This document shows, piece after piece, positions 1 through 9,643 of a stretch of 10,340 nucleotides of DNA. Source of the DNA: Litoreibacter sp. Its GTDB lineage: Bacteria; Pseudomonadota; Alphaproteobacteria; Rhodobacterales; Rhodobacteraceae. The position numbers and the translations under genes are program-made. Position 1 is the stretch's first letter; each line of letters starts with the position of its first letter. The notes below the pieces were generated by a model. That model did no database searches, was not told the DNA's origin, and saw nothing but the letters and a program-made list of their open reading frames with translations. The DNA is taken from NCBI GenBank assembly GCA_013042765.1, contig JABDPP010000308.1, positions 1 through 10,340 on the forward strand, in the 5' to 3' direction.

Positions 1-257
1 ATCTCCTGGATAGCGGCGGCAATCGATGTGCCGATATGGGGCAGATCGACCAGCGCCTGTCGTCCACCCTTATGAAGAATATCTGCCACCGGTGACGCCA
101 TTCCGGCGACCTCCTCGGCAGCGGCGCGATAAGCCCGCACGCGGAATACACTGGCCGATTGAGCCTCCAGCAGGTCTGCAACCATAGAGAGCTTTTCGAC
201 AACCAGCAGGTTGTCAGGATGCGGCGCCGATGGCGCGATGTGATTGATACGGGACAT
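1..257 (-). CDS. Helix-hairpin-helix DNA-binding protein, N-terminal part
   Basis: Only the first 85 codons are present; the gene runs off the left edge. Residues about 18-85 resemble the N-terminal helix-hairpin-helix (8-kDa-like) domain of the DNA polymerase beta/PolX family: a helix ending in VADLLEAQ, the FRVRAYRAAA signature (residues 38-47), and the hairpin LPHIG (72-76). In that family the domain binds non-specifically to DNA backbone at gaps or ends. The ATG at 257 is preceded by a good ribosome site (GAGAGGG, 264-270, 6-nt spacing). The gene lies downstream of the hybrid kinase on the same strand, but has its own promoter with an FNR/FixK-type box in the 112-bp gap. It could be a full PolX (polymerase plus PHP exonuclease) or a shorter HhH-only protein. 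The missing C-terminus prevents a choice, so no symbol is given. Confidence 0.8.
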   Translation of the reverse strand, partial: MSRINHIAPSAPHPDNLLVVEKLSMVADLLEAQSASVFRVRAYRAAAEEVAGMASPVADILHKGGRQALVDLPHIGTSIAAAIQE

Positions 258-296: not shown

Positions 297-337
297 AAAA
301 TACCAGATCCCAAGGTCATAACATTGACCTGCCTCAA
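297..337 (-). promoter_or_regulatory. FNR/FixK-type box and -10 for the HhH gene
   Basis: The sequence TTGACCTGCCTCAA at 324-337 fits TTGA-N6-TCAA, the half-site pattern of FNR, FixK and Dnr regulators. Reading toward the HhH gene, 21 nt separate it from TATTTT (302-297), which is preceded by TGG and so resembles an extended -10. This puts the box near -41.5 (class II activation) and a start about 32 nt before the ATG. The centre of this box is less symmetric than the others in the window. Sequence match only; the regulator is unknown. Confidence 0.6.
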
Positions 338-369
338 AACTGGGATTCACACCCCAACATCAGCGTTGC

Positions 370-3300
370 TCAGTCGAGAAGGTCCCTCAAGGACACCGCC
401 AAGTCGTTAAGCCCATAGGGTTTGCGCAAGATTCTAGATTCCTCCGCAGCCCGGCCCAGACGTCCATTGGCCTCTTTCTCAAAGCCGGTGACCAACAGGA
501 TCTTGATATCGGGCCTGATGGCCTGCGCCTGTTCCGCGACATCGAACCCGTTCAGCGGGCCCGGCATGACCACGTCGCTGAGAACCAGATCGATCGCATT
601 ATTGTTTCGCAGCATGGCGATTGCCTCGGCCCCGCCCTCGGCATCTACAACCGTGTAGTCCAGCTCCTTCAGGCGCATGACTGTCAGCTTGCGCACCGCA
701 GGATCATCATCAACCACGAGAATGAGTTCACCGCCCCCCTTCGGACAACGGCTCGCTCCTGTAGGTGCAACAGGCTCTTCTTCCGTCGCGACCGGCAGAT
801 AGAGCGTTACGGTCGTTCCCTGATCGGGTTCGCTTTCGATCCAGGCATGGCCCTTGGACTGCTTTGCGAAGCCATAAACCATGCTCAATCCAAGGCCCGA
901 GCCGCGCCGGGGCCCTTTTGTCGTGAAAAAAGGCTCGAACGCGTGTTCGATTACCTCAGGTGACATCCCGAAACCGCTATCGCTTACCGACAGGGCGACG
1001 TAAGGCCCGGGCTCCAGATCCGCCTGGGTGGAAGTGTACGCCTCATCCAATGCCACATCGCGCGCTTCGATGGTAAGCCGCCCTCCCTCGGGCATCGCGT
1101 CACGCGCATTCAGGACGAGGTTGAGAACAGCACTTTCAAGGAGGCCCGGGTCGCTGAGCGCGGCGCTCAGATCGTCTGCCAGTTTCAGATGAATATCGAT
1201 CGCAGCACCCAGCGTGCGCCTTAGAAGCGGTTCCATCGCGCGCACCAGCGCGTTGAGATCGACGTTGCTGCGTTCCAGAGTCTGCTTGCGAGAGAAGGCA
1301 AGAAGCTGGCTCGTCAGCTCGGCCCCCATATTTGCGGCTCCCAGGACCTCGCTCAATAATTTACGGTTCCCGGCATCGCGCACCCGCATTTCCAGTAATT
1401 CCAGATTGCCGATGATAATCGTCAGTAAGTTATTGAAATCATGAGCGAGCCCGCCCGTCATCTGGCCAACAGCTTCCATCTTCTGGGCCTGCTGGAGCGC
1501 ATTGCGGCGGCGCACCTCATCCGTCAAATCGCGCAGGAACGCAGTGAAGTAGCGCTGATCGTTGGCACGAAACTCGGCGACCGTGATCAGCACCGGAATC
1601 CGTGTTCCGTCCTTTCGCATCGCCTCAATTTCGCGGCCGACGCCGATGATCCGTTTCTCTCCGGTGCGCAGGTAATGCTTCATATAGCCATCATGACGGC
1701 TGCGCTCGGGCTCGGGCATCAGCAGATTGATACTACGGCCGAAGATCTCGTCGATCTCGTAGCCGAACATCTCTTCCGCGGCCGGGCTAAAGCCCTCAAT
1801 ACGCCCCTTGGCATCGGCCAGAATTACCGCCTCGGGCGCCGTTTTCAGAATTGCACTCAGACGCGCTTCGCGCTCGGCCAGTGACTTCAGGGCGAGGTTC
1901 TCCTCGGTCACATCTTCCGCGGCCAGAAGAATCTGCTCGCCGCCATCGCCGGGCCTGTCGATCCGGCGTGCGTTAAGCACCATGTCGCGACGCGCCTTCC
2001 CAGCCACGCGTAGCGAGATCTCGAAACTCTCGACCGATTTCTTCTCAGGTAGGACACGCTCCCGCAAGTCGCGCAGCTTCGCATCATTCCATTGGCCGTC
2101 CTGAATCTCGAACAGGAGTTGCCCCTCGATCTCATCGGGACGCGTTCCGAAGATCCTGCAAAAGGAGTTGCTGGATTTCAGGATCCGAAATTCGTCGTTC
2201 AGGATCAGAAGTGGCTCGCGCACCGTGTTGATGATGCTCTCGGCAATCAGCTGCGCGCGGCGGTTGGCCTGCTCTGCGGCCCTGGCGGTGCTGAGATCAT
2301 CGGCAAGCCGGCGCTCATCATCTATCTTGTGCTGCAATTCCGCATTCAGGGTTAACAGTTCTTCATTGAGCGATTGCACTTCCTCGCGGGAGCTTTCCAG
2401 CGCCTCAGCAGTCGCCCGCGGCCCGTCCTGAAGCTCTATGTTTTCGAGCGCGCCGGGGCCCGCCTTGGGCGCCGGGGAACCAGAAGCCAGATCCCCGCCC
2501 AGAAGACTTTGAGCCGTGGTGTCCTTCAGGGTTTCATGGGCGACCGGTGCCGGTCGCGAGCCGGGCAACTCCTCGAACGTAACCAGCAGCCTGAGCGCGC
2601 CGTCATCCTCAATCGGATGGACGCAAATCGCGACTGGCAGGTCTTCACCGTCTCGCATCACGCTGCCGATGGCGGAGGCATCCCTGCGCCGGCTCAACGC
2701 CGACCGAACCGCATCGCCCAGTTCTGCACGCACCCCGTCGCGCGCCATCGCGAGAATATCCCGACTGGCCTCTCCCTGGGGCACTTTCACGTAACGGTCC
2801 GCGGGCCCCTGAACGAACAGGACCTCCCGTTGCGGATTGATTAAAACGGCTGCCGGGGCGTAGCGTTCCAACAGGAAACTTTGACTGATCTCGGCCAGTT
2901 GTCCGCGCCGCGCACCTTTCGCACCGGCGTCGGGCTGCGCTCCGATGCGGGATAAATCAAACTCTGGACGCACCGCGCCACCGATCCGACGGTAGACCCC
3001 GTGCTCCTCACTCACAGACGCAAAAAACTCCGAATGATGGCACGCCGTCTCCGACGTCCCAAGAACCAGAATTCCGTTTTCTTTCAAGGCGAAATGCAGC
3101 ATGCGCAAAACGCAATCATGGGATGGTTTATCTAGGTAGATCAGCAGGTTGCGGCAAGCCACCAGATCCAGATTCGAGTAGGGCGCATCACCCAGAATGT
3201 CTTGATGCGCAAAAACCACGACGTCGCGTAACGCGGGTGCGGCAACATATGTGTCGCCTTCGCGTGTGAAGAACCGCTTCAGCCGCTCGGGCGAAAAATC

Positions 3301-3894
3301 AGCTTCAATCGCCACCGGGAACACGCCTTTGCGGGCCACGCCTAACGCGTCATCGTCGACATCAGAAGCAAATACCTGAAGGTCCACCTCCTTGCCCTGC
3401 CGTTCAGAAGCCTCGATCACCAGCATGGCGAGCGAATACGCTTCCTCTCCCGTTGCGCAGCCCGGCACCCAGAACCGCAGTCCCTGCCCGGCACCGCAAT
3501 TGGCGACCAGATCGGGGATAACCTGCGCTTCGAGATAGTCAAAAACCTCGGGGTCGCGGAAAAACCACGTGACGCTTATCAGCAGATCGCGGCAGAGGTG
3601 CTCCGCCTCTTCCGGTGACGATCTCAGCAGGTCGAGATAGGCCTGTGGATCCTCCAGATGCTTCAACGCCATGCGTCGCGCGATCCGGCGCAAAACCAAG
3701 CTTTGCTTATAGGGCCCGAAGTCCATGGGCCCCTCGCCCTCCAGAACGCTGAGAACATCACTCAGAATGCTCTCGGCTGCTTCGACCAGATGCAGCGCAT
3801 CCTGCTGCAGCGGCGTGGTGTTCTGTTGACTTTCGTTACCTGAGGCGGGGCGGCGCGGGCGCGACTTGGCCGTCTTCTTCGTCGTCCCGGCCAT
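370..3894 (-). CDS. CheR/PAS/FixL-like PAS hybrid histidine kinase with receiver
   Basis: A soluble 1174-residue signalling protein with no membrane segment seen. In order: charged N-tail (1-35); CheR-type SAM methyltransferase (about 40-306; VPGCATGEEAYSLA at 143-156, LVACRNLLIYL near 244-254) without the CheB domain often fused to it; a degenerate PAS-like region (335-445); a low-complexity linker and coiled coil (about 485-545); PAS1 (about 548-665); PAS2 (about 680-795); HisKA with phospho-acceptor H818 in GGLAHDFNNLL; HATPase with N-box (about 924-936) and glycine boxes (DSGFG near 972, GSGLGLS near 998); and a C-terminal receiver with phospho-acceptor D1107 in LSDVVMPG and K at RKPYG. 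PAS2 carries the FixL haem-PAS signature (MPEPxRxRHD, IIGVGR), with H734 and R754 at the haem-ligand and distal-Arg positions. No DNA-binding output is present. The CBS gene lies 103 bp upstream on the same strand. Kinase identity is secure; oxygen sensing is inferred. Confidence 0.96.
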   Translation of the reverse strand: MAGTTKKTAKSRPRRPASGNESQQNTTPLQQDALHLVEAAESILSDVLSVLEGEGPMDFGPYKQSLVLRRIARRMALKHLEDPQAYLDLLRSSPEEAEHLCRDLLISVTWFFRDPEVFDYLEAQVIPDLVANCGAGQGLRFWVPGCATGEEAYSLAMLVIEASERQGKEVDLQVFASDVDDDALGVARKGVFPVAIEADFSPERLKRFFTREGDTYVAAPALRDVVVFAHQDILGDAPYSNLDLVACRNLLIYLDKPSHDCVLRMLHFALKENGILVLGTSETACHHSEFFASVSEEHGVYRRIGGAVRPEFDLSRIGAQPDAGAKGARRGQLAEISQSFLLERYAPAAVLINPQREVLFVQGPADRYVKVPQGEASRDILAMARDGVRAELGDAVRSALSRRRDASAIGSVMRDGEDLPVAICVHPIEDDGALRLLVTFEELPGSRPAPVAHETLKDTTAQSLLGGDLASGSPAPKAGPGALENIELQDGPRATAEALESSREEVQSLNEELLTLNAELQHKIDDERRLADDLSTARAAEQANRRAQLIAESIINTVREPLLILNDEFRILKSSNSFCRIFGTRPDEIEGQLLFEIQDGQWNDAKLRDLRERVLPEKKSVESFEISLRVAGKARRDMVLNARRIDRPGDGGEQILLAAEDVTEENLALKSLAEREARLSAILKTAPEAVILADAKGRIEGFSPAAEEMFGYEIDEIFGRSINLLMPEPERSRHDGYMKHYLRTGEKRIIGVGREIEAMRKDGTRIPVLITVAEFRANDQRYFTAFLRDLTDEVRRRNALQQAQKMEAVGQMTGGLAHDFNNLLTIIIGNLELLEMRVRDAGNRKLLSEVLGAANMGAELTSQLLAFSRKQTLERSNVDLNALVRAMEPLLRRTLGAAIDIHLKLADDLSAALSDPGLLESAVLNLVLNARDAMPEGGRLTIEARDVALDEAYTSTQADLEPGPYVALSVSDSGFGMSPEVIEHAFEPFFTTKGPRRGSGLGLSMVYGFAKQSKGHAWIESEPDQGTTVTLYLPVATEEEPVAPTGASRCPKGGGELILVVDDDPAVRKLTVMRLKELDYTVVDAEGGAEAIAMLRNNNAIDLVLSDVVMPGPLNGFDVAEQAQAIRPDIKILLVTGFEKEANGRLGRAAEESRILRKPYGLNDLAVSLRDLLD

Positions 3895-3900
3895 GCCAAT

Positions 3901-3956
3901 CTTCCCCGTTGCCTCTCCCCGGGGAGGATAATACTATGTTTTCAAGCCATAATCCA
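3901..3956 (-). promoter_or_regulatory. Possible kinase promoter and leader
   Basis: On the minus strand TATTAT (3933-3928, five of six to the -10 consensus) has TGGATT 17 nt upstream (3956-3951, a poor -35). An overlapping CTTGAAA (3946-3940), 15 nt before CCCC, also resembles a heat-shock sigma-32 -35. A perfect 12-nt palindrome CTCCCCGGGGAG (3915-3926) falls in the predicted leader, just before the SD-like GGGGAAG (3907-3901), which is 6 nt before the ATG. No FNR/FixK box is found here. The gene could also be read from the CBS promoter. Confidence 0.35.
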
Positions 3957-3997
3957 GTTTTCGAGCTACCCTCGGCATTTCGGCGACCCGAGCGGCC

Positions 3998-4417
3998 TCA
4001 CGGATGGTGATCGGACACCGCATGGATCAACTCGCCGGCCAGCTCGCGGCTCACGGCATGCGAGATATCACCGACACTCAGCATCCCGACCAGGTGGTTT
4101 TCGTCATTGAGCACCGGCAGGCGGCGAATTTTCTTCTGATCCATCAGATGGATCGCATCCTCCACCGTCTGGTGCGACTTGCAGTAGACGACCCCCTTGG
4201 TCATCACGCTGTGCGCCTTGGTTTTCTTGGGATCCTTGCCCTCGGCTACGACGCCAAGCGCGATATCACGGTCGGTGACCATGCCGACGATGTCTTCCCC
4301 CTTGCAGACCGGGATCGCGCCGACATCGTCCTTGCGCATCAACTCGGCAATCTCCGCCACACTGGTGTCCGGCGACACCCAGTCCACGGTTTTATGCATA
4401 GCTTCACAAACGTCCAT
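3998..4417 (-). CDS. Tandem CBS-domain protein
   Basis: A 139-residue protein made almost wholly of two CBS domains: CBS1 about 8-60 (GAIPVCKGEDIVGMVTDRDI, 33-52) and CBS2 about 72-125 (RRLPV at 98-102, LVGMLSVGDI at 109-118). Paired CBS domains usually form a Bateman module that binds adenine nucleotides or related ligands. Stand-alone forms like this lack an enzyme partner, so the role here is unknown, perhaps energy- or redox-state sensing. The reading frame can be opened from a TTG at 4432, but that codon overlaps the ribosome site GGAGGG (4430-4425). The ATG at 4417, 7 nt after it, is the better start. An FNR/FixK-type box with a well-placed -10 lies directly upstream. The kinase gene follows on the same strand after 103 bp, so partial co-transcription is possible. 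Confidence 0.94.
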   Translation of the reverse strand: MDVCEAMHKTVDWVSPDTSVAEIAELMRKDDVGAIPVCKGEDIVGMVTDRDIALGVVAEGKDPKKTKAHSVMTKGVVYCKSHQTVEDAIHLMDQKKIRRLPVLNDENHLVGMLSVGDISHAVSRELAGELIHAVSDHHP

Positions 4418-4424
4418 TTGATTT

Positions 4425-4430
4425 CCCTCC
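4425..4430 (-). promoter_or_regulatory. Ribosome binding site deciding the CBS start
   Basis: GGAGGG on the minus strand lies 7 nt before the ATG at 4417. It overlaps the alternative TTG start at 4432 and so argues against the five-residue longer form. Confidence 0.75.
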
Positions 4431-4447
4431 AACAGAGATATGTGAGG

Positions 4448-4489
4448 AGTCTAGCCAAAGGCCCGCCGGAGCTCATTGACAGATGTCAA
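4448..4489 (-). promoter_or_regulatory. FNR/FixK-type box and -10 for the CBS gene
   Basis: TTGACAGATGTCAA at 4476-4489 is a symmetric TTGAC-N4-GTCAA palindrome, a strong fit to the FNR/FixK/Dnr site. Reading toward the CBS gene, 22 nt lead to TAGACT (4453-4448, four of six to TATAAT). This puts the box at about -41.5 and the start near 4441, giving a 24-nt leader that contains the ribosome site. The geometry is that of a class II activated promoter. Confidence 0.75.
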
Positions 4490-4550
4490 AATGAGGCTTC
4501 CGGAACGGTCCGGGCAAGCTACTGCAACGCCATGTATCACAGCACAAGAA

Positions 4551-4580
4551 GGCGCCACCGGACACAAGTCCAGTGGCGCC
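4551..4580 (-). terminator. Long hairpin downstream of Hsp20 gene
   Basis: Two 13-nt arms (4551-4563 and 4568-4580) pair at 12 of 13 positions around a 4-nt loop. The stem is very GC-rich. On the minus strand it is followed by TTCTTGTG, a weak T-rich tail, so it may end the Hsp20 transcript about 135 nt past its stop and insulate the CBS promoter. There is no clean T-run, and a role as an RNA processing or protein-binding hairpin is possible. Confidence 0.45.
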
Positions 4581-4714
4581 AAAGATCCCGCCACCCGGTA
4601 CGCGGGGCAGTGTGCAAACAAGATACAAGAAGGGCGAGCAGGACCTATCCCTCATCCGGCGAGGCTACGCCAAGCCGGGCGCCATACGCGCCAGTTGGCG
4701 CTCCCATAATGGGA

Positions 4715-5236
4715 TCAGGCGGCTTTGATCTGGACGTGCTTCTCCTTCTGGATGACCTCCTTGGTCTTGGGCAGGGTCACGCGCAAAACGCCCTTGCTAT
4801 AGGTAGCCTCGATCTTATCAGCATCTACGCCTTCGGGCAGGCGGAACCGGCGCTGGAACGAGCCGTAGCGGCGTTCGGACAGGAAGTAGTTCTTCTCTTC
4901 CTTCTCGGTTTCTTCGGATTTTTCGCCCTTGATCAAAAGGGTTCCGTTGGAAATCTTGATGTCCACGTCCTTCTCGTCCATGCCCGGCAGCTCCGCCGAG
5001 ATCTCGTAGGCGTCTTTCTGCTCCGTGAGGTCCATGGCCGGGGACAGCTCCCACTGGCCTTCGCGACCAAGAATCCGGCGCGATAGGGGCTCACGCCAGG
5101 ACATCGGGTCGAAATCATCAAAAAGACGTTCGATCTCATGGCGCAGCGAGCCGAAAGGGGTCCAGCTTTCCTCCTTGGTCGGCGCAGGCTGCGGCGCCTC
5201 TTTCTTCACTTCGAGTTTGGTCTTCGTATCTGCCAT
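4715..5236 (-). CDS. Hsp20 family small heat-shock protein
   Basis: A 173-residue ATP-independent holdase chaperone that binds unfolding proteins in the cytoplasm as large oligomers. It has a charged, proline-containing N-arm (1-25), an amphipathic segment (LRHEIERLFDDF, 31-42) and an alpha-crystallin domain (about 66-158; AMDLTEQKDAYEI, AELPGM and the conserved GVLRVTLPK at 149-157). A short tail with VQI follows, the oligomer-linking IxI-type motif. The frame stays open upstream to give 225 residues, but the ATG at 5236 follows a near-perfect AGGAGGT (5249-5243) by 6 nt and starts the family-like sequence. It is transcribed divergently from the Cfa gene. No convincing promoter of its own was found within 250 bp; the FNR/FixK-type box of the spacer is about 295 bp upstream and is oriented better for the Cfa gene. 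Confidence 0.96.
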   Translation of the reverse strand: MADTKTKLEVKKEAPQPAPTKEESWTPFGSLRHEIERLFDDFDPMSWREPLSRRILGREGQWELSPAMDLTEQKDAYEISAELPGMDEKDVDIKISNGTLLIKGEKSEETEKEEKNYFLSERRYGSFQRRFRLPEGVDADKIEATYSKGVLRVTLPKTKEVIQKEKHVQIKAA

Positions 5237-5242
5237 TGCTCC

Positions 5243-5249
5243 ACCTCCT
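5243..5249 (-). promoter_or_regulatory. Ribosome binding site deciding the Hsp20 start
   Basis: AGGAGGT on the minus strand, 6 nt before the ATG at 5236. It rules in the 173-residue form over upstream in-frame starts. Confidence 0.85.
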
Positions 5250-5525
5250 GAAATGAAATGCCATGGTCGCCCGGCAGGATCGCACCGGACGCGGCTTTCT
5301 GCGCGAAATCGCGGGAACGTTCTGAATTTGCCCCTCCGATCTCCGCACGGACCATCTCGTGGCCAACGGGCTCGATCGTCAGAGGACTGCACTCGTTAAC
5401 AACAACTTCAGCGCGAGAGGCAAACTGGGTCATCGGACCACGATTCGCATTGATCTTAGTCAGTTTCACGCTCGGGTTTTTGCCAAACCCGGCAACCCGT
5501 GCAAAAACGCAGCAAGGAGGCCTTT

Positions 5526-5567
5526 TTGACATCGGTCAAGACCTGCCCATTACCCGTTTTGTAGCAT
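5526..5567 (+). promoter_or_regulatory. FNR/FixK-type box and -10 for the Cfa gene
   Basis: TTGACATCGGTCAA at 5526-5539 fits TTGAC-N4-GTCAA. Exactly 22 nt separate it from TAGCAT (5562-5567, four of six to TATAAT), the same spacing as at the CBS gene. The predicted start is near 5574. No -10 is seen at the equivalent place on the other strand, so the box seems directed at Cfa rather than Hsp20. Confidence 0.72.
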
Positions 5568-5678
5568 GTTCAACGTTTCGAAAGTCGGACAGGCCGTAAG
5601 GCGTGCTGCGCACGGGCGAGACAGGTTTTGCTGCCTAGCGCGTTCCACTGAGCCGTCCGGAACCGTGAGGAAAAGAAA

Positions 5679-6914
5679 ATGTGGACCAACCTTTTTCACG
5701 CCATGCTGACTCATTTCGTCCGCATCGGCGATCTGCACGTCACTCTCCCCGATGGAACGATCCGCCAGTATGGCGACGGAACGCGGCCCTTCGCAGCGAT
5801 CCATATCAAGGACCCCTCACTCCTGCGCCGGATCGTCATGAACCCGGACCTAGGCGTCGGCGAAGGATATATGGAGGGGACACTCACCATCGATGATGAG
5901 GACCTTTACGGCTTTCTCGAACTGGCCGTCCGAAATGCCGCGCGCCCATCAGCCTTCGTGTGGTGGCAGCAGCCGCTGAGGCTCATGCGCCGCGCGCTGC
6001 GGGTCGTCGAGCAATACAACCCGATCGAACGCGCACCGGCCAATGTGGCCCACCATTACGACCTCTCCGGGGAGCTCTATGACCTGTTTCTGGATGCCGA
6101 CCTGCAATATTCCTGCGCCTATTTCCGCAAACCGTCCGAAACGCTCGAACAGGCGCAGGATAACAAGAAACGCCATATCGCCAGCAAGCTCCTGATCGAG
6201 CCGGGCATGCGCGTGCTCGATATCGGCTGCGGCTGGGGCGGGCTGGCGCTGACGCTGGCCAGCGAATACGGGGCGCACGTGCTTGGTGTCACCTTGTCGA
6301 AGGAACAGCATGAAGTCGCCTGTCAGCGCGCACGCGCGGCCGGATTGCAGGACCAGGTGGAGTTCCGCCTGATGGATTACCGCGCCGTGGAAGGGGAGTT
6401 CGACCGGATCGTCTCGGTCGGCATGTTTGAGCATGTGGGCGTACCCCATTACCGGGAGTTCTTCGATCAGGTGCATCATTTGCTCAAGCCTGACGGGGTC
6501 GCCCTGATTCATACGATCGGGCGCAGCTCACCGCCGGGCACAACCAGCAGCTTCATCGCGAAATACATCTTCCCGGGCGGCTATGTCCCGGCCCTGTCGG
6601 AGACCATGCGTGCCATCGAACACCAGGATCTCTGCACCACTGATATCGAGGTCTGGCGGCTGCATTATGCAGAAACGCTGAAGCACTGGCGCGCCCGGTT
6701 CGAGGCCAACATCGACAAGGTCCGCGACATCTATGACGAGCGGTTCTGCCGGATGTGGCGCTACTACCTGATCGCTGCGGAGCTGACCTTCCGGCATGAC
6801 CACCAGGTCGTGTTCCAGTTCCAGTTGACGCACCGTCAGGACGCCGTTCCGCTGACCCGCGACTACCTCTACCAGCCGGAGAAGCCACGCCGCCTGCGGC
6901 AAGCCGCAGAGTAA
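5679..6914 (+). CDS. cfa: Cyclopropane-fatty-acyl-phospholipid synthase
   Basis: This enzyme transfers a methylene group from S-adenosylmethionine to cis double bonds of membrane phospholipid acyl chains, a change linked to acid, heat and stationary-phase tolerance. It has 411 residues, slightly longer than the E. coli enzyme (about 380). An N-terminal lipid-binding domain (about 1-115) precedes the class I methyltransferase core: YSCAYF (144-149), SAM motif DIGCGWGG (181-188), MFEHVG with E251, HTIG with H278, KYIFPGG (295-301) and HYAETLKHW (329-337). C146, E251, H278 and Y330 match the bicarbonate/active-site residues known in E. coli Cfa; the E-to-H spacing of 27 is identical. The ATG at 5679 has GAGGAA (5667-5672) before it. 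The methyltransferase/esterase gene follows after 128 bp on the same strand. Related lipid methyltransferases share the fold, but Cfa is the best call. Confidence 0.93.
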   Translation: MWTNLFHAMLTHFVRIGDLHVTLPDGTIRQYGDGTRPFAAIHIKDPSLLRRIVMNPDLGVGEGYMEGTLTIDDEDLYGFLELAVRNAARPSAFVWWQQPLRLMRRALRVVEQYNPIERAPANVAHHYDLSGELYDLFLDADLQYSCAYFRKPSETLEQAQDNKKRHIASKLLIEPGMRVLDIGCGWGGLALTLASEYGAHVLGVTLSKEQHEVACQRARAAGLQDQVEFRLMDYRAVEGEFDRIVSVGMFEHVGVPHYREFFDQVHHLLKPDGVALIHTIGRSSPPGTTSSFIAKYIFPGGYVPALSETMRAIEHQDLCTTDIEVWRLHYAETLKHWRARFEANIDKVRDIYDERFCRMWRYYLIAAELTFRHDHQVVFQFQLTHRQDAVPLTRDYLYQPEKPRRLRQAAE

Positions 6915-6971
6915 TTCAGCCGCACTTGCTTCAGCGCCTGAAAGGCACAGAGCCAGCCCTCGACGGAGCCG

Positions 6972-6985
6972 TTGATACGCGTCAA
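6972..6985 (+). promoter_or_regulatory. FNR/FixK-type box upstream of PCMT/esterase gene
   Basis: TTGATACGCGTCAA fits TTGA-N6-TCAA with matching half-sites TTGAT/GTCAA. It lies 57 nt before the ATG at 7043. Unlike the other three boxes there is no -10-like hexamer 21-22 nt downstream (AACCTG is found there). A weaker TAAACG (7026-7031) would place the box near -60, as in class I promoters, with a start almost at the ATG. Confidence 0.6.
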
Positions 6986-7042
6986 TCGGGAGGCGCGAAA
7001 CCGTGGCAACCTGCGCCCGTAGTGCTAAACGGTTCTCTTCTC

Positions 7043-9046
7043 ATGTACGACTTCACGAAACTCCGTCAGAACATGGTCCGAAAGCAAGTCGAAGCCCGCG
7101 GCGTGACGGCAGCCAATGTGCTTGCAGCCATGGGCAAGGTGCCGCGCGAGAAGTTCGTGACCGAAAGCCTGCGGGGCCTGTCTTATGACGACCGCCCGCT
7201 GGTGATCGCCGAGGGTCAGATCCTGCCGCAACCCTACGTGGCAGCCTTCATGATAGAGGCGCTTGGCCTGACGGGGGGCGAGAGGGTGCTGGAGATTGGG
7301 GCTAGCACCGGCTACGCCGCCGCGGTGCTGGCCCAGATCGCGGCCGACGTTTACACGATCGAGCGTGTCGGCCAGCGCGCCGAACGCGCAGCGAGCACGC
7401 TGCAAAAGGCGGGTTACAGCAACGTCCACTTGCTCCATGCCGACGGCACGCGGGGCTGGGCGGAACACGCACCCTTTGACGCAATTCTCGTCGCGGGTGC
7501 GGTGCCCTATGTCCCCGAGACCCTGAAGAACCAGCTCGCCACCGGCGGCCGTATGGTCGTGCCCGTCGGTATCGACCTGCGCGCGCAGGAACTCGTCCGC
7601 CTCACTCGTCTGCCCGACGGGCAGTTTGAACAGGAGGACATCGCAGACATACGTTTCGTGCCAGCCATCAGTGAGATGCACTGGGAGGGCGAAACGCCGC
7701 GTTCCGAGACGCGACAGCCGCGCATCCTTGCTCCTGACAGTGATACAGACCGGACGCTGCCCGCCCTCATCGTCAAACACGCCGAGGTGTTCGAGCGCAT
7801 CGAAGACGCCGACCTCTCCCCCCTTCTCGAGCGGATCGGCGACCGGCGAGTGGTCCTGATTGGGGAGGCAAGCCACGGCACCTCGGAGTTCTACCAGATG
7901 CGCGCCCGGATCACTCGACAACTCATCGAACAGAAGGGCTTCAACATCGTCGCGGTGGAGGCCGACTGGCCCGACGCGGCCCGCATCGATCGCTACGTGC
8001 GCGACAAGCAGACCGCCCCGTCTGACTGGGCGCCCTTTGCACGGTTCCCGACGTGGATGTGGCGCAACACCGAGACGCAGAACTTCGCTGACTGGCTGCA
8101 TGAATACAATTCGGCGCGTCCGGCGCGCAACCGAACGGCCTTCTATGGGCTCGATCTCTACAGCCTGTTTAGTTCGGCCCGCGCGACCATCTCCTATCTT
8201 GAAGGGGTCGACGAGAAGCTGGCCCGTCTGGCACGCCGCCGCTATGGCTGCCTGAGCCCATGGGAAGACGAGCCCACCGCCTATGGTCGTGCTGCTTTGG
8301 GAGAGGCGTTCCGAACCTGCGAAACTGAAGTCACACAGGTTCTCACGGACCTGCACCGCAAGCGTGCCGAGTATAGCGGGCAGGACGGGGAAGGCTTTCT
8401 GGATGCCACGCAGAACGCCTACCTCGTCGCCAATGCCGAACGTTATTACCGGATCATGTATTACGGCTCCCGCGCGGCGTGGAACCTGCGCGACAGCCAC
8501 ATGTTCGAGACCCTCCAGAATGTGATGCAGTTCCACGGCCCGCGCGCAAAAGCCGTGATCTGGGCTCACAATTCCCATATCGGAGATGCCCGCGCGACCG
8601 AGATGACGGCCCGCGCGGAGCACAATCTGGGCGAGCTTTGCGCCAAGGGTTTTGGACAAGACAGCTACCGGATCGGGTTTGGCACGGATCGCGGTACGGT
8701 CGCGGCCGCGGCGCGATGGGACGGTGCGATGGAAACCATGGACGTGCGCCCCGCCCACCGGCTCAGCTACGAGCACCAGTTCAAGCTCACCGGCTTGCCC
8801 GGCCTGATCCTGCCAATGCGTCCGGGTCAGGAACTGGAAATGGTCGAAGAATTGGTAAATCCGCGGCTCGAACGCGCCATCGGCGTGATCTACCGCCCGC
8901 AGTCAGAGCTCGCCAGCCACTATTTTGAGGCAGCCCTTCCGCACCAGTTTGACGAATATATCTGGATTGAAGAAACCAGCGCCGTCACCGCCCTTTCTGC
9001 AAGCCGCGATCGTGGGATGCCCGACACCTACCCGTTTGGGGTTTGA
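7043..9046 (+). CDS. Isoaspartate O-methyltransferase/erythromycin-esterase-like fusion
   Basis: A 667-residue two-domain protein. Residues 1-215 are a protein-L-isoaspartate methyltransferase (Pcm type), which uses SAM to start repair of isomerised Asp/Asn in damaged proteins: NMVRKQVEARG (10-20), GQILPQPY (58-65) and SAM motif LEIGASTGYAAAV (83-95). The usual Ser of the GQxxSQPY motif is Pro here. Residues about 240-655 form an erythromycin-esterase-like domain with LIGEASHGTSEFY (272-284; E275, H278), VAVEADW (E306) and WAHNSHIGD (H509, H512), which hold the family's catalytic Glu/His residues. These chromosomal homologues have no proven macrolide activity, so the substrate is unknown. The frame opens from a TTG at 6926, but the methyltransferase homology begins at the ATG at 7043. 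No Shine-Dalgarno sequence precedes it, so a leaderless or weakly initiated message is possible. The C-terminus converges on the next gene with a 12-bp gap. Confidence 0.94.
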   Translation: MYDFTKLRQNMVRKQVEARGVTAANVLAAMGKVPREKFVTESLRGLSYDDRPLVIAEGQILPQPYVAAFMIEALGLTGGERVLEIGASTGYAAAVLAQIAADVYTIERVGQRAERAASTLQKAGYSNVHLLHADGTRGWAEHAPFDAILVAGAVPYVPETLKNQLATGGRMVVPVGIDLRAQELVRLTRLPDGQFEQEDIADIRFVPAISEMHWEGETPRSETRQPRILAPDSDTDRTLPALIVKHAEVFERIEDADLSPLLERIGDRRVVLIGEASHGTSEFYQMRARITRQLIEQKGFNIVAVEADWPDAARIDRYVRDKQTAPSDWAPFARFPTWMWRNTETQNFADWLHEYNSARPARNRTAFYGLDLYSLFSSARATISYLEGVDEKLARLARRRYGCLSPWEDEPTAYGRAALGEAFRTCETEVTQVLTDLHRKRAEYSGQDGEGFLDATQNAYLVANAERYYRIMYYGSRAAWNLRDSHMFETLQNVMQFHGPRAKAVIWAHNSHIGDARATEMTARAEHNLGELCAKGFGQDSYRIGFGTDRGTVAAAARWDGAMETMDVRPAHRLSYEHQFKLTGLPGLILPMRPGQELEMVEELVNPRLERAIGVIYRPQSELASHYFEAALPHQFDEYIWIEETSAVTALSASRDRGMPDTYPFGV

Positions 9047-9085
9047 GCCGCACGGAAATCAGGGTTTGACCGAAACCCAAACCCC
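9038..9085. terminator. Possible terminator between convergent genes
   Basis: GGGGTTTG (9038-9045) pairs with CAAACCCC (9078-9085). Inside it GGGTTT/AAACCC (9062-9067 with 9073-9078) forms a tighter 6-bp hairpin with a 5-nt loop. The structure covers the meeting point of the two convergent genes and lies partly within both coding ends. No T-run follows, so termination is only a suggestion. Confidence 0.25.
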
Positions 9086-9643
9086 ATCGACGTTAACAGT
9101 CGCGGGTTTTCCGCAATGGAACATGTAGTAGGTAAAGCCCGAATGCGGCAGCCGGATGATGTCTCGCCGTCCGATCAGCTTTGCCGCTTTCTTGTGAACG
9201 TCCGTACCATGCATGCTGCTCATTCTCAGGGTCTGGGCCGGGGACACGAGCATGTTCTGGTTCGGCTTCTTGGGACCGAAGGCACCTTCGCGGATCAGAA
9301 CCGGCTGCGCGCCCGGACGACCTTCGAGAAAGTCGACGTCGAGCTTAATCTTGTCGATCCATTCAATGCGCACGAAGTCGCCGGAAAACGTCTTTACCTG
9401 ATCGCGCAATCGCAGTGCTTCGATCGGGAGCTGCCCGAAAATCGTGGTGATCTTGGATTTTCCGTAGAACCCGGGAAGGGTCCAGATCTCGCGCTCGCTC
9501 GGGTTGCGCGTGGGACGGACGCGCTGACGCAGGGCCGGGCTGGGCTTGTTAGCCGCCTGACCCAGATCGCTCGTACTCTCCAGCACGGAGCTGATGATCT
9601 GATCGGCGGTTTTGGGGCGTCTTACTTGCACGGCTCTTTTCAT
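9059..9643 (-). CDS. Hint-domain (Hedgehog/intein-like) protein without catalytic Cys
   Basis: A 194-residue protein. Residues 1-52 are basic and low in recognisable structure. Residues about 55-190 resemble the alphaproteobacterial Hint_2 family: LPGFYGKSKITT stands where active members read CFxxGTxIxT; then LPIEALRLRDQV (72-83), VRIEWIDK (91-98), PVLIREGAFGP (114-124), MLVSPAQTLRM (131-141), and a final MFHCGKPATVNVDGVWVS (174-191). Active Hint domains self-process through an N-terminal Cys; here Gly58 occupies that place, so self-cleavage is unlikely. Most relatives are C-terminal parts of larger secreted or cell-surface proteins, whereas this is a stand-alone short form with no signal peptide. 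The ATG at 9643 follows GAAGGTG (9655-9649) by 5 nt. It has no evident functional link with the stress genes. Family call is by motif reading and is moderately sure. Confidence 0.72.
   Translation of the reverse strand: MKRAVQVRRPKTADQIISSVLESTSDLGQAANKPSPALRQRVRPTRNPSEREIWTLPGFYGKSKITTIFGQLPIEALRLRDQVKTFSGDFVRIEWIDKIKLDVDFLEGRPGAQPVLIREGAFGPKKPNQNMLVSPAQTLRMSSMHGTDVHKKAAKLIGRRDIIRLPHSGFTYYMFHCGKPATVNVDGVWVSVKP

Follow-up and report, generated by a model that had tools for sequence, protein, structure and literature searches.

Predicted FNR/FixK-type boxes upstream of CBS, Hsp20-Cfa and Pcm-esterase genes in a Litoreibacter contig

The FixK2 regulon of Bradyrhizobium diazoefficiens is said to have been originally defined by Mesa et al. 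in 2008. Genes annotated in this organism as Pcm (bll4651), Hsp20 (blr7961) and CBS (blr6074) are induced by microoxia and are direct FixK2 targets (PMC6515984). The predicted alphaproteobacterial core regulons assign Hsp20 and a CBS-domain protein to FixK, and UspA, cytochrome oxidase and RdxB/FixG to FNR (PMC2908626). FNR-type targets of Rhodobacterales are mainly redox processes (PMC4999443), and those of Dinoroseobacter FnrL include Usp and cold shock (PMC5398030). Here, the palindrome TTGA-N6-TCAA was analysed in 10,340 nucleotides of Litoreibacter sp. (Rhodobacteraceae; contig JABDPP010000308.1 of assembly GCA_013042765.1). This stretch, the window, makes up an entire contig (C52) in a metagenome-assembled genome that is 80% complete and comprises 449 contigs totalling 2.6 Mb. 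Of the four palindromes in the window, three are, with high probability, bound by an FNR/FixK-type regulator of the organism, which is predicted to activate three transcription units at low oxygen.

A preliminary description of the window had placed four TTGA-N6-TCAA palindromes in intergenic gaps, all upstream of stress genes, and had calculated that 10 kb of even base composition should hold about 0.16 exact copies. The calculation is correct. A pattern scan likewise returned exactly four matches, at 324, 4476, 5526 and 6972, and all four are intergenic on the gene starts as read, which were taken from the open reading frame list, the sequence and Pfam matches. Longer open frames overlap the gaps of the sites on either strand, and a simple gene caller misplaces starts and puts some intergenic sites, including sites 1 and 2, inside frames. 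CBS, Cfa and a methyltransferase/esterase fusion had been named rightly as neighbours; Hsp20, divergent from Cfa over site 3, had been left out. The palindromes and the genes behind sites 2 to 4 are the following.

324..337, no strand: site 1, TTGACCTGCCTCAA, exact match, a doubtful FNR/FixK-type box; it lies between the gene start at 256 (-) and the stop of a CheR-kinase at 370, with its centre about 74 bp before the start codon of that gene.
3998..4417, - strand: protein of two CBS domains, 139 amino acids (PF00571, 103 bits, two stretches).
4476..4489, no strand: site 2, TTGACAGATGTCAA, exact match, also present before orthologues, predicted FNR/FixK-type box upstream of CBS; it lies between the CBS start at 4417 (-) and the Hsp20 stop at 4715, its centre about 65 bp from the CBS start codon.
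4715..5236, - strand: Hsp20 small heat-shock protein, 173 amino acids (PF00011, 103 bits).
5526..5539, no strand: site 3, TTGACATCGGTCAA, exact match, predicted FNR/FixK-type box in the divergent Hsp20-Cfa gap; it lies between the Hsp20 start at 5236 (-) and the Cfa start at 5679 (+), with about 146 bp between its centre and the Cfa start, and about 296 bp between its centre and the Hsp20 start.
5679..6914, + strand: cyclopropane fatty acid synthase-like protein (Cfa), 411 amino acids (PF02353, 313 bits; NCBIfam CPFASynBruc, 577 bits, slightly below the cut-off of 600).
6972..6985, no strand: site 4, TTGATACGCGTCAA, exact match, predicted FNR/FixK-type box upstream of Pcm-Ere; it lies between the Cfa stop at 6914 and the Pcm-Ere start at 7043, its centre about 65 bp from the Pcm-Ere start codon.
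7043..9046, + strand: fusion of a protein-L-isoaspartate methyltransferase and an erythromycin-esterase-like domain (Pcm-Ere), 667 amino acids (PF01135, PF05139).

The box centre of an FNR/FixK-type activator is expected near -41.5 from the transcription start, and the spacing of sites 1, 2 and 4 (65-74 bp to the start codons) is compatible with an activator at about that position.

Conservation was measured by counting exact TTGA-N6-TCAA sites within 300 bp upstream of homologues. One best match per locus was taken, provided that it covered at least 70% of the query and had 100 bp or more of DNA upstream; the window and duplicates were dropped, and 23 anagram palindromes were used as controls, which gave means of 0.00-0.22 per upstream set. 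Conservation upstream of orthologues was strong for CBS, partial for Hsp20 and Pcm-Ere, and weak for Cfa. For CBS, six of the seven non-self orthologues within the family at 55% identity or more carry an exact site starting 69-137 bp upstream, with the start of site 2 lying 72 bp before the start codon in the window, and the seventh has one-mismatch sites only. When the window was aligned with five of these seven orthologues, 8 of the 13 invariant upstream columns fell inside the box. Exact sites precede 8/9 CBS homologues at 50% identity or more and 4/30 at 30-50%. The corresponding counts are 4/8 (45% or more) and 7/26 (25-45%) for Hsp20, 9/43 (55% or more) and 1/40 (45-55%) for Pcm-Ere, and 2/7 for Cfa at 56% or more. 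In the DNA downstream of these genes, exact sites were absent for CBS (0/9 and 0/30), for Hsp20 at 45% or more (0/8) and for Cfa (0/7 and 0/23).

The Pcm-Ere loci were also scored at the level of the presumed operon, by following the co-directional upstream genes. A box precedes 15 of the 80 operons, with a control mean of 0.30. It is found at 11 of the 26 loci titled as Alphaproteobacteria, which were chosen by hand according to title and genus (control mean 0.04), and at 4 of the remaining 54. Sites 2, 3 and 4 look real because relatives hold the matching signal before the matching genes, and the conservation that the preliminary description had proposed to check is present for them as recurrence above the controls, from strong at CBS to weak at Cfa.

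The sites also share a form. A set of 46 homologous sites was compiled by hand, from which three (L217, L221 and L225) were excluded as lying at or slightly inside an extrapolated start. The longer pattern TTGAY-N4-RTCAA, with its Y/R inner flanks, occurs in 42 of the 46, and in 43/49 when the three are added, one of which fits. Sites 2, 3 and 4 have this anaerobox form and score 18.6-19.4, against a median of 18.9 for the homologous set. Site 1 lacks the Y/R flanks and scores 15.6, at quantile 0.04 among the homologous sites.

It is hardly credible that the four palindromes are a random cluster devoid of function, given that the pattern is found again before CBS, Hsp20 and Pcm-Ere homologues, where the 23 control palindromes hardly occur; for site 2, chance is refuted by conservation. 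Chance does draw on the fact that just eight bases are fixed, and it suits site 1 well. The window holds three one-mismatch matches besides the four exact ones, seven together, where shuffled windows gave a mean of 3.04 and reached seven or more in 8/200 shuffles. When the 57 sites found in the genome were placed at random, four or more fell on the contig of the window with P = 9e-5, and four fell within some 6.7 kb stretch in 2.1% of simulations. Since 2.1% of simulations yield such a cluster, clustering alone is moderate evidence, and conservation is the strong evidence for the sites.

These 57 copies of TTGA-N6-TCAA compare with 14 of the reversed pattern, so that the palindrome is over-represented, and it stands before known FNR/FixK targets. 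The surroundings of 50 of the 57 sites were inspected, and Pfam was run on 30 genes adjoining part of them. The genes beside other copies include FixG, a COX1-family oxidase with a divergent Usp, two more Usp genes, cytochrome b561 and a DksA-like protein; a second Hsp20 gene of the genome has a box 33 bp before it. Further copies adjoin genes without a clear connection (for example Bmp, LGT and an AMP-binding enzyme) or fall inside genes, as expected because the motif is short; Y/R inner flanks were present at 21 of the 50 genome sites, among the sites listed. The window thus appears to be one part of a genome-wide FNR/FixK-type regulon. The preliminary description had proposed a local regulon; a regulon is supported, and "local" is too narrow in view of copies before FixG, the oxidase and Usp.

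From these sequence features, the following course may be proposed. As oxygen falls, either an Fe-S FnrL would be activated by oxygen loss or FixK would be produced through FixLJ, and the regulator would bind TTGAY-N4-RTCAA at sites 2 to 4. The first unit to be activated would be CBS, probably with the CheR-FixL-like kinase behind it, the second Cfa and/or Hsp20 from their common divergent gap, and the third Pcm-Ere. Hsp20 would hold unfolded protein, Pcm repair isoaspartyl damage, Cfa stabilise the membrane and CBS sense adenine nucleotides. Together they would keep protein, membrane and cell state through energy limitation at low oxygen.

The reader of the sites is predicted to be an FNR/FixK-family protein, with FnrL or FixK as candidates. 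When the genome was searched with PF13545, with the cNMP-binding domain and with the FnrL model, a single FNR-type candidate emerged: a C-terminal fragment of 66 residues containing ETVSR, which lies where contig C188 ends and has Usp and DUF2267 genes as neighbours. The fragment matches the Caulobacter-type FixK model with 62 bits and FnrL with 51 bits, and is 34-54% identical to FnrL C-termini of the same genus, in which FnrL is found above the cut-off in 18 of 21 genomes. On the same contig, a box TTGATCCCTATCAA lies between the divergent Usp and DUF2267 genes (L037 2384-4594); this locus is probably the regulator's own neighbourhood. The best match to the FixJ model reached 142.7 bits against a cut-off of 255 in this 80% complete genome, and two complete CRP-family proteins exceeded the cut-off of no FNR-, FixK- or Dnr-type model.

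The same palindrome could be read mainly by a nitric oxide-responsive regulator of the Dnr/NnrR type, in which case the genes would form a nitrosative-stress or denitrification response. Dnr and FnrL do recognise a common site (PMC5398030). This reading is nevertheless quite improbable: no full-length Dnr-type protein was found in the incomplete genome, where two cNMP-domain proteins stay below the model cut-offs, and the neighbours of the boxes are oxidase, FixG and Usp rather than nir, nor or nos, among the part of the 57 sites annotated. On nitrosative stress itself, the inspected neighbours give no evidence either way.

Several results weigh against regulation of sites 2 to 4 by an FNR/FixK-type protein at low oxygen. 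Neither the FnrL model nor the cNMP-binding domain retrieved a full-length FNR-type regulator from the genome, which is 80% complete. No exact operon-level site was found at 65 of the 80 Pcm-Ere loci. Exact sites also occur downstream of Pcm-Ere homologues (3/43 and 2/40 in the two identity classes) and of Hsp20 homologues at 25-45% identity (1/26). A scan of 3850-7100 for sigma-70 promoter-like sequences found 0, with 1.0 expected from shuffles; the missing match is neutral for an activator-dependent promoter. In the table for B. diazoefficiens, the CBS proteins blr2762, blr4646 and bll5551 are unmarked as direct FixK2 targets (PMC6515984). For Cfa, 0/23 homologues at 45-56% identity have an exact site within 300 bp upstream, and this class takes in most Cfa genes of the same genus; in that genus, Cfa matches (E <= 0.001) were obtained in 20/20 other listed genomes, and the best loci fetched are without an exact site within 400 bp.

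The record for Cfa bears on a narrower alternative, in which sites 2 and 4 control generic stress genes and site 3 acts on Hsp20, with Cfa a bystander. This is a genuine possibility, if a tentative one. It accounts for the empty upstream regions of the 45-56% class, and for the frequent sites before Hsp20 homologues, the genome's second Hsp20 included. Against it, site 3 is closer to Cfa than to Hsp20, and two of the seven closest Cfa homologues (L171 and L173) are preceded by exact sites, at 92 and 150 bp, in loci where no homologue of the window Hsp20 was found. The Hsp20-Cfa gap also holds a possible weak second box.

5450..5463, no strand: one-mismatch site, TTGATCTTAGTCAG; its score of 11.3 is the fifth best in the window, and the minimum of the homologous set is 14.9.

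Similar gene sets stand behind boxes elsewhere, which supports control of the three units by an FNR/FixK-type regulator. In Maricaulis (L138), one box precedes Pcm-Ere and the next Hsp20-CBS. Two boxes stand before CBS-Cpn60-Pcm-Ere in an alphaproteobacterium (L118), and in Sulfitobacter sabulilitoris (L103) two precede an operon of an uncharacterised gene, Usp and Pcm-Ere. In Bradyrhizobium (L115), boxes precede Hsp20, an FtsH-like protease and Pcm-Ere; its full Pcm-Ere fusion is 58% identical to that of the window and has TTGATGTCGATCAA about 100 bp upstream. The FtsH-like protease (L115 7415-9478) and the Cpn60 chaperonin (L118 8230-9855) lie beside Pcm-Ere with boxes before them, and the box-controlled set outside this genome therefore has more protein quality control. 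A near-whole Pcm-Ere fusion occurs in 5 of 198 family genomes, the present one included, and the one same-genus genome in the Pcm-Ere sample (G171) has a Pcm match only. Outside the family, at least 587 stretches were confirmed, other phyla included, and 130 plasmid records carry the fusion at 80% coverage. Being rare in the family yet widespread elsewhere, Pcm-Ere is an accessory gene.

Site 1 is a different case.

2..256, - strand: N-terminal part, 85 residues, of a gene cut off by the contig edge; its label "HhH" is unverified.

This gene had no Pfam match even at E = 10 and no NCBIfam match, and the 197 other genomes of the family gave no homologue that was credible. The sole other match (G188; E 6.5e-4) is stop-interrupted, overlaps a longer open reading frame and was taken as chance. 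Site 1 is unproven because its flanks are not Y/R, its score is low and usable orthologues are lacking, and it may be a chance palindrome. The preliminary description had made it a stress-gene box and built on it a DNA-binding arm of the regulon; flanks, score, homologues and domain searches support neither. Thus the FNR/FixK-type assignment holds for sites 2 to 4, which have matching sites upstream of homologues, and three palindromes of the four, not all, can be tied to stress or maintenance genes.

The transcription units around CBS involve two further features, and a last gene of the window has no site linked to it.

370..3894, - strand: CheR - PAS - PAS (FixL-like) - HisKA - HATPase - receiver hybrid kinase, 1174 amino acids.
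4551..4580, - strand: hairpin with a 13-bp stem 3' of Hsp20, a probable terminator (fold z = -5.3; 0/200 shuffles equally stable).
9059..9643, - strand: short Hint_2-domain protein.

The hairpin probably separates Hsp20 from CBS, and because it is terminator-like, CBS is likely its own unit, transcribed from site 2. The CheR-kinase gene follows CBS in the same orientation after 103 bp and may be co-transcribed with it, since the gap holds no terminator-like site. An Rfam search of the window gave no match. Among solved structures, the second PAS of the kinase is closest to FixL (E 1.1e-33), and the H of RHDGY and the R of GVGR align with the FixL H and R, which we take to be the heme ligand and the distal residue of a FixL-type PAS. 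The domain is thus related by sequence to the FixL heme PAS, and heme binding is putative. The CheR part and the kinase part occur together in at least 7 further genomes of the order sample (292 searched). A relative in S. sabulilitoris (L103, 18040-21981) has an N-terminal CheB, which the window kinase is without, and lies about 7 kb from the box-driven Usp-Pcm-Ere operon. An island with its own oxygen sensor, in which site 2 would drive a CBS - CheR-FixLPAS-kinase-receiver operon and a heme-PAS kinase would be under FNR/FixK control, is conceivable but unlikely. If true, the kinase would add a second, graded oxygen (or NO/CO) signal to the protein-maintenance genes or to a separate output.

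If sites 2 to 4 act as predicted, the control of protein-maintenance genes by low oxygen, already described for FixK2 of Bradyrhizobium, extends to Rhodobacteraceae; identical boxes also stand before Pcm-Ere in some records of beta- and gammaproteobacteria. The Pcm-esterase fusion, Hsp20 and CBS, and elsewhere Cpn60, FtsH and Usp, stand repeatedly behind one box in varied arrangements, which suggests that protein upkeep when oxygen is limiting has been selected as an arm of the regulon, rather than arising as a by-product of the control of respiration. This offers a testable condition of use for the poorly understood Pcm-esterase fusion and for the two-CBS protein. Among the papers listed by term searches of open-licence literature, none linked Cfa or the Pcm-esterase fusion to FNR/FixK.

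Compared with the described systems, the window is like the FixK2 regulon of B. diazoefficiens in having Pcm, Hsp20 and CBS as targets; it differs in gene order, and Cfa is unnamed among the targets in the portions of that paper drawn on (PMC6515984). The Pcm gene there, bll4651, is presumably the Pcm-Ere fusion. FixK is described as generally restricted to Rhizobiales (PMC2908626), whereas the genes and boxes of the window are in Rhodobacteraceae. The Rhodobacteraceae FnrL regulons (PMC5398030, PMC4263372, PMC4999443) resemble it in family, palindrome, and Usp and oxidase targets; the cluster CBS-Hsp20-Cfa-Pcm-Ere was not met in the portions of these papers drawn on. The type of regulon is therefore known, and what is new is its Rhodobacteraceae setting, Cfa, and a FixL-like PAS kinase that is probably co-transcribed with CBS.

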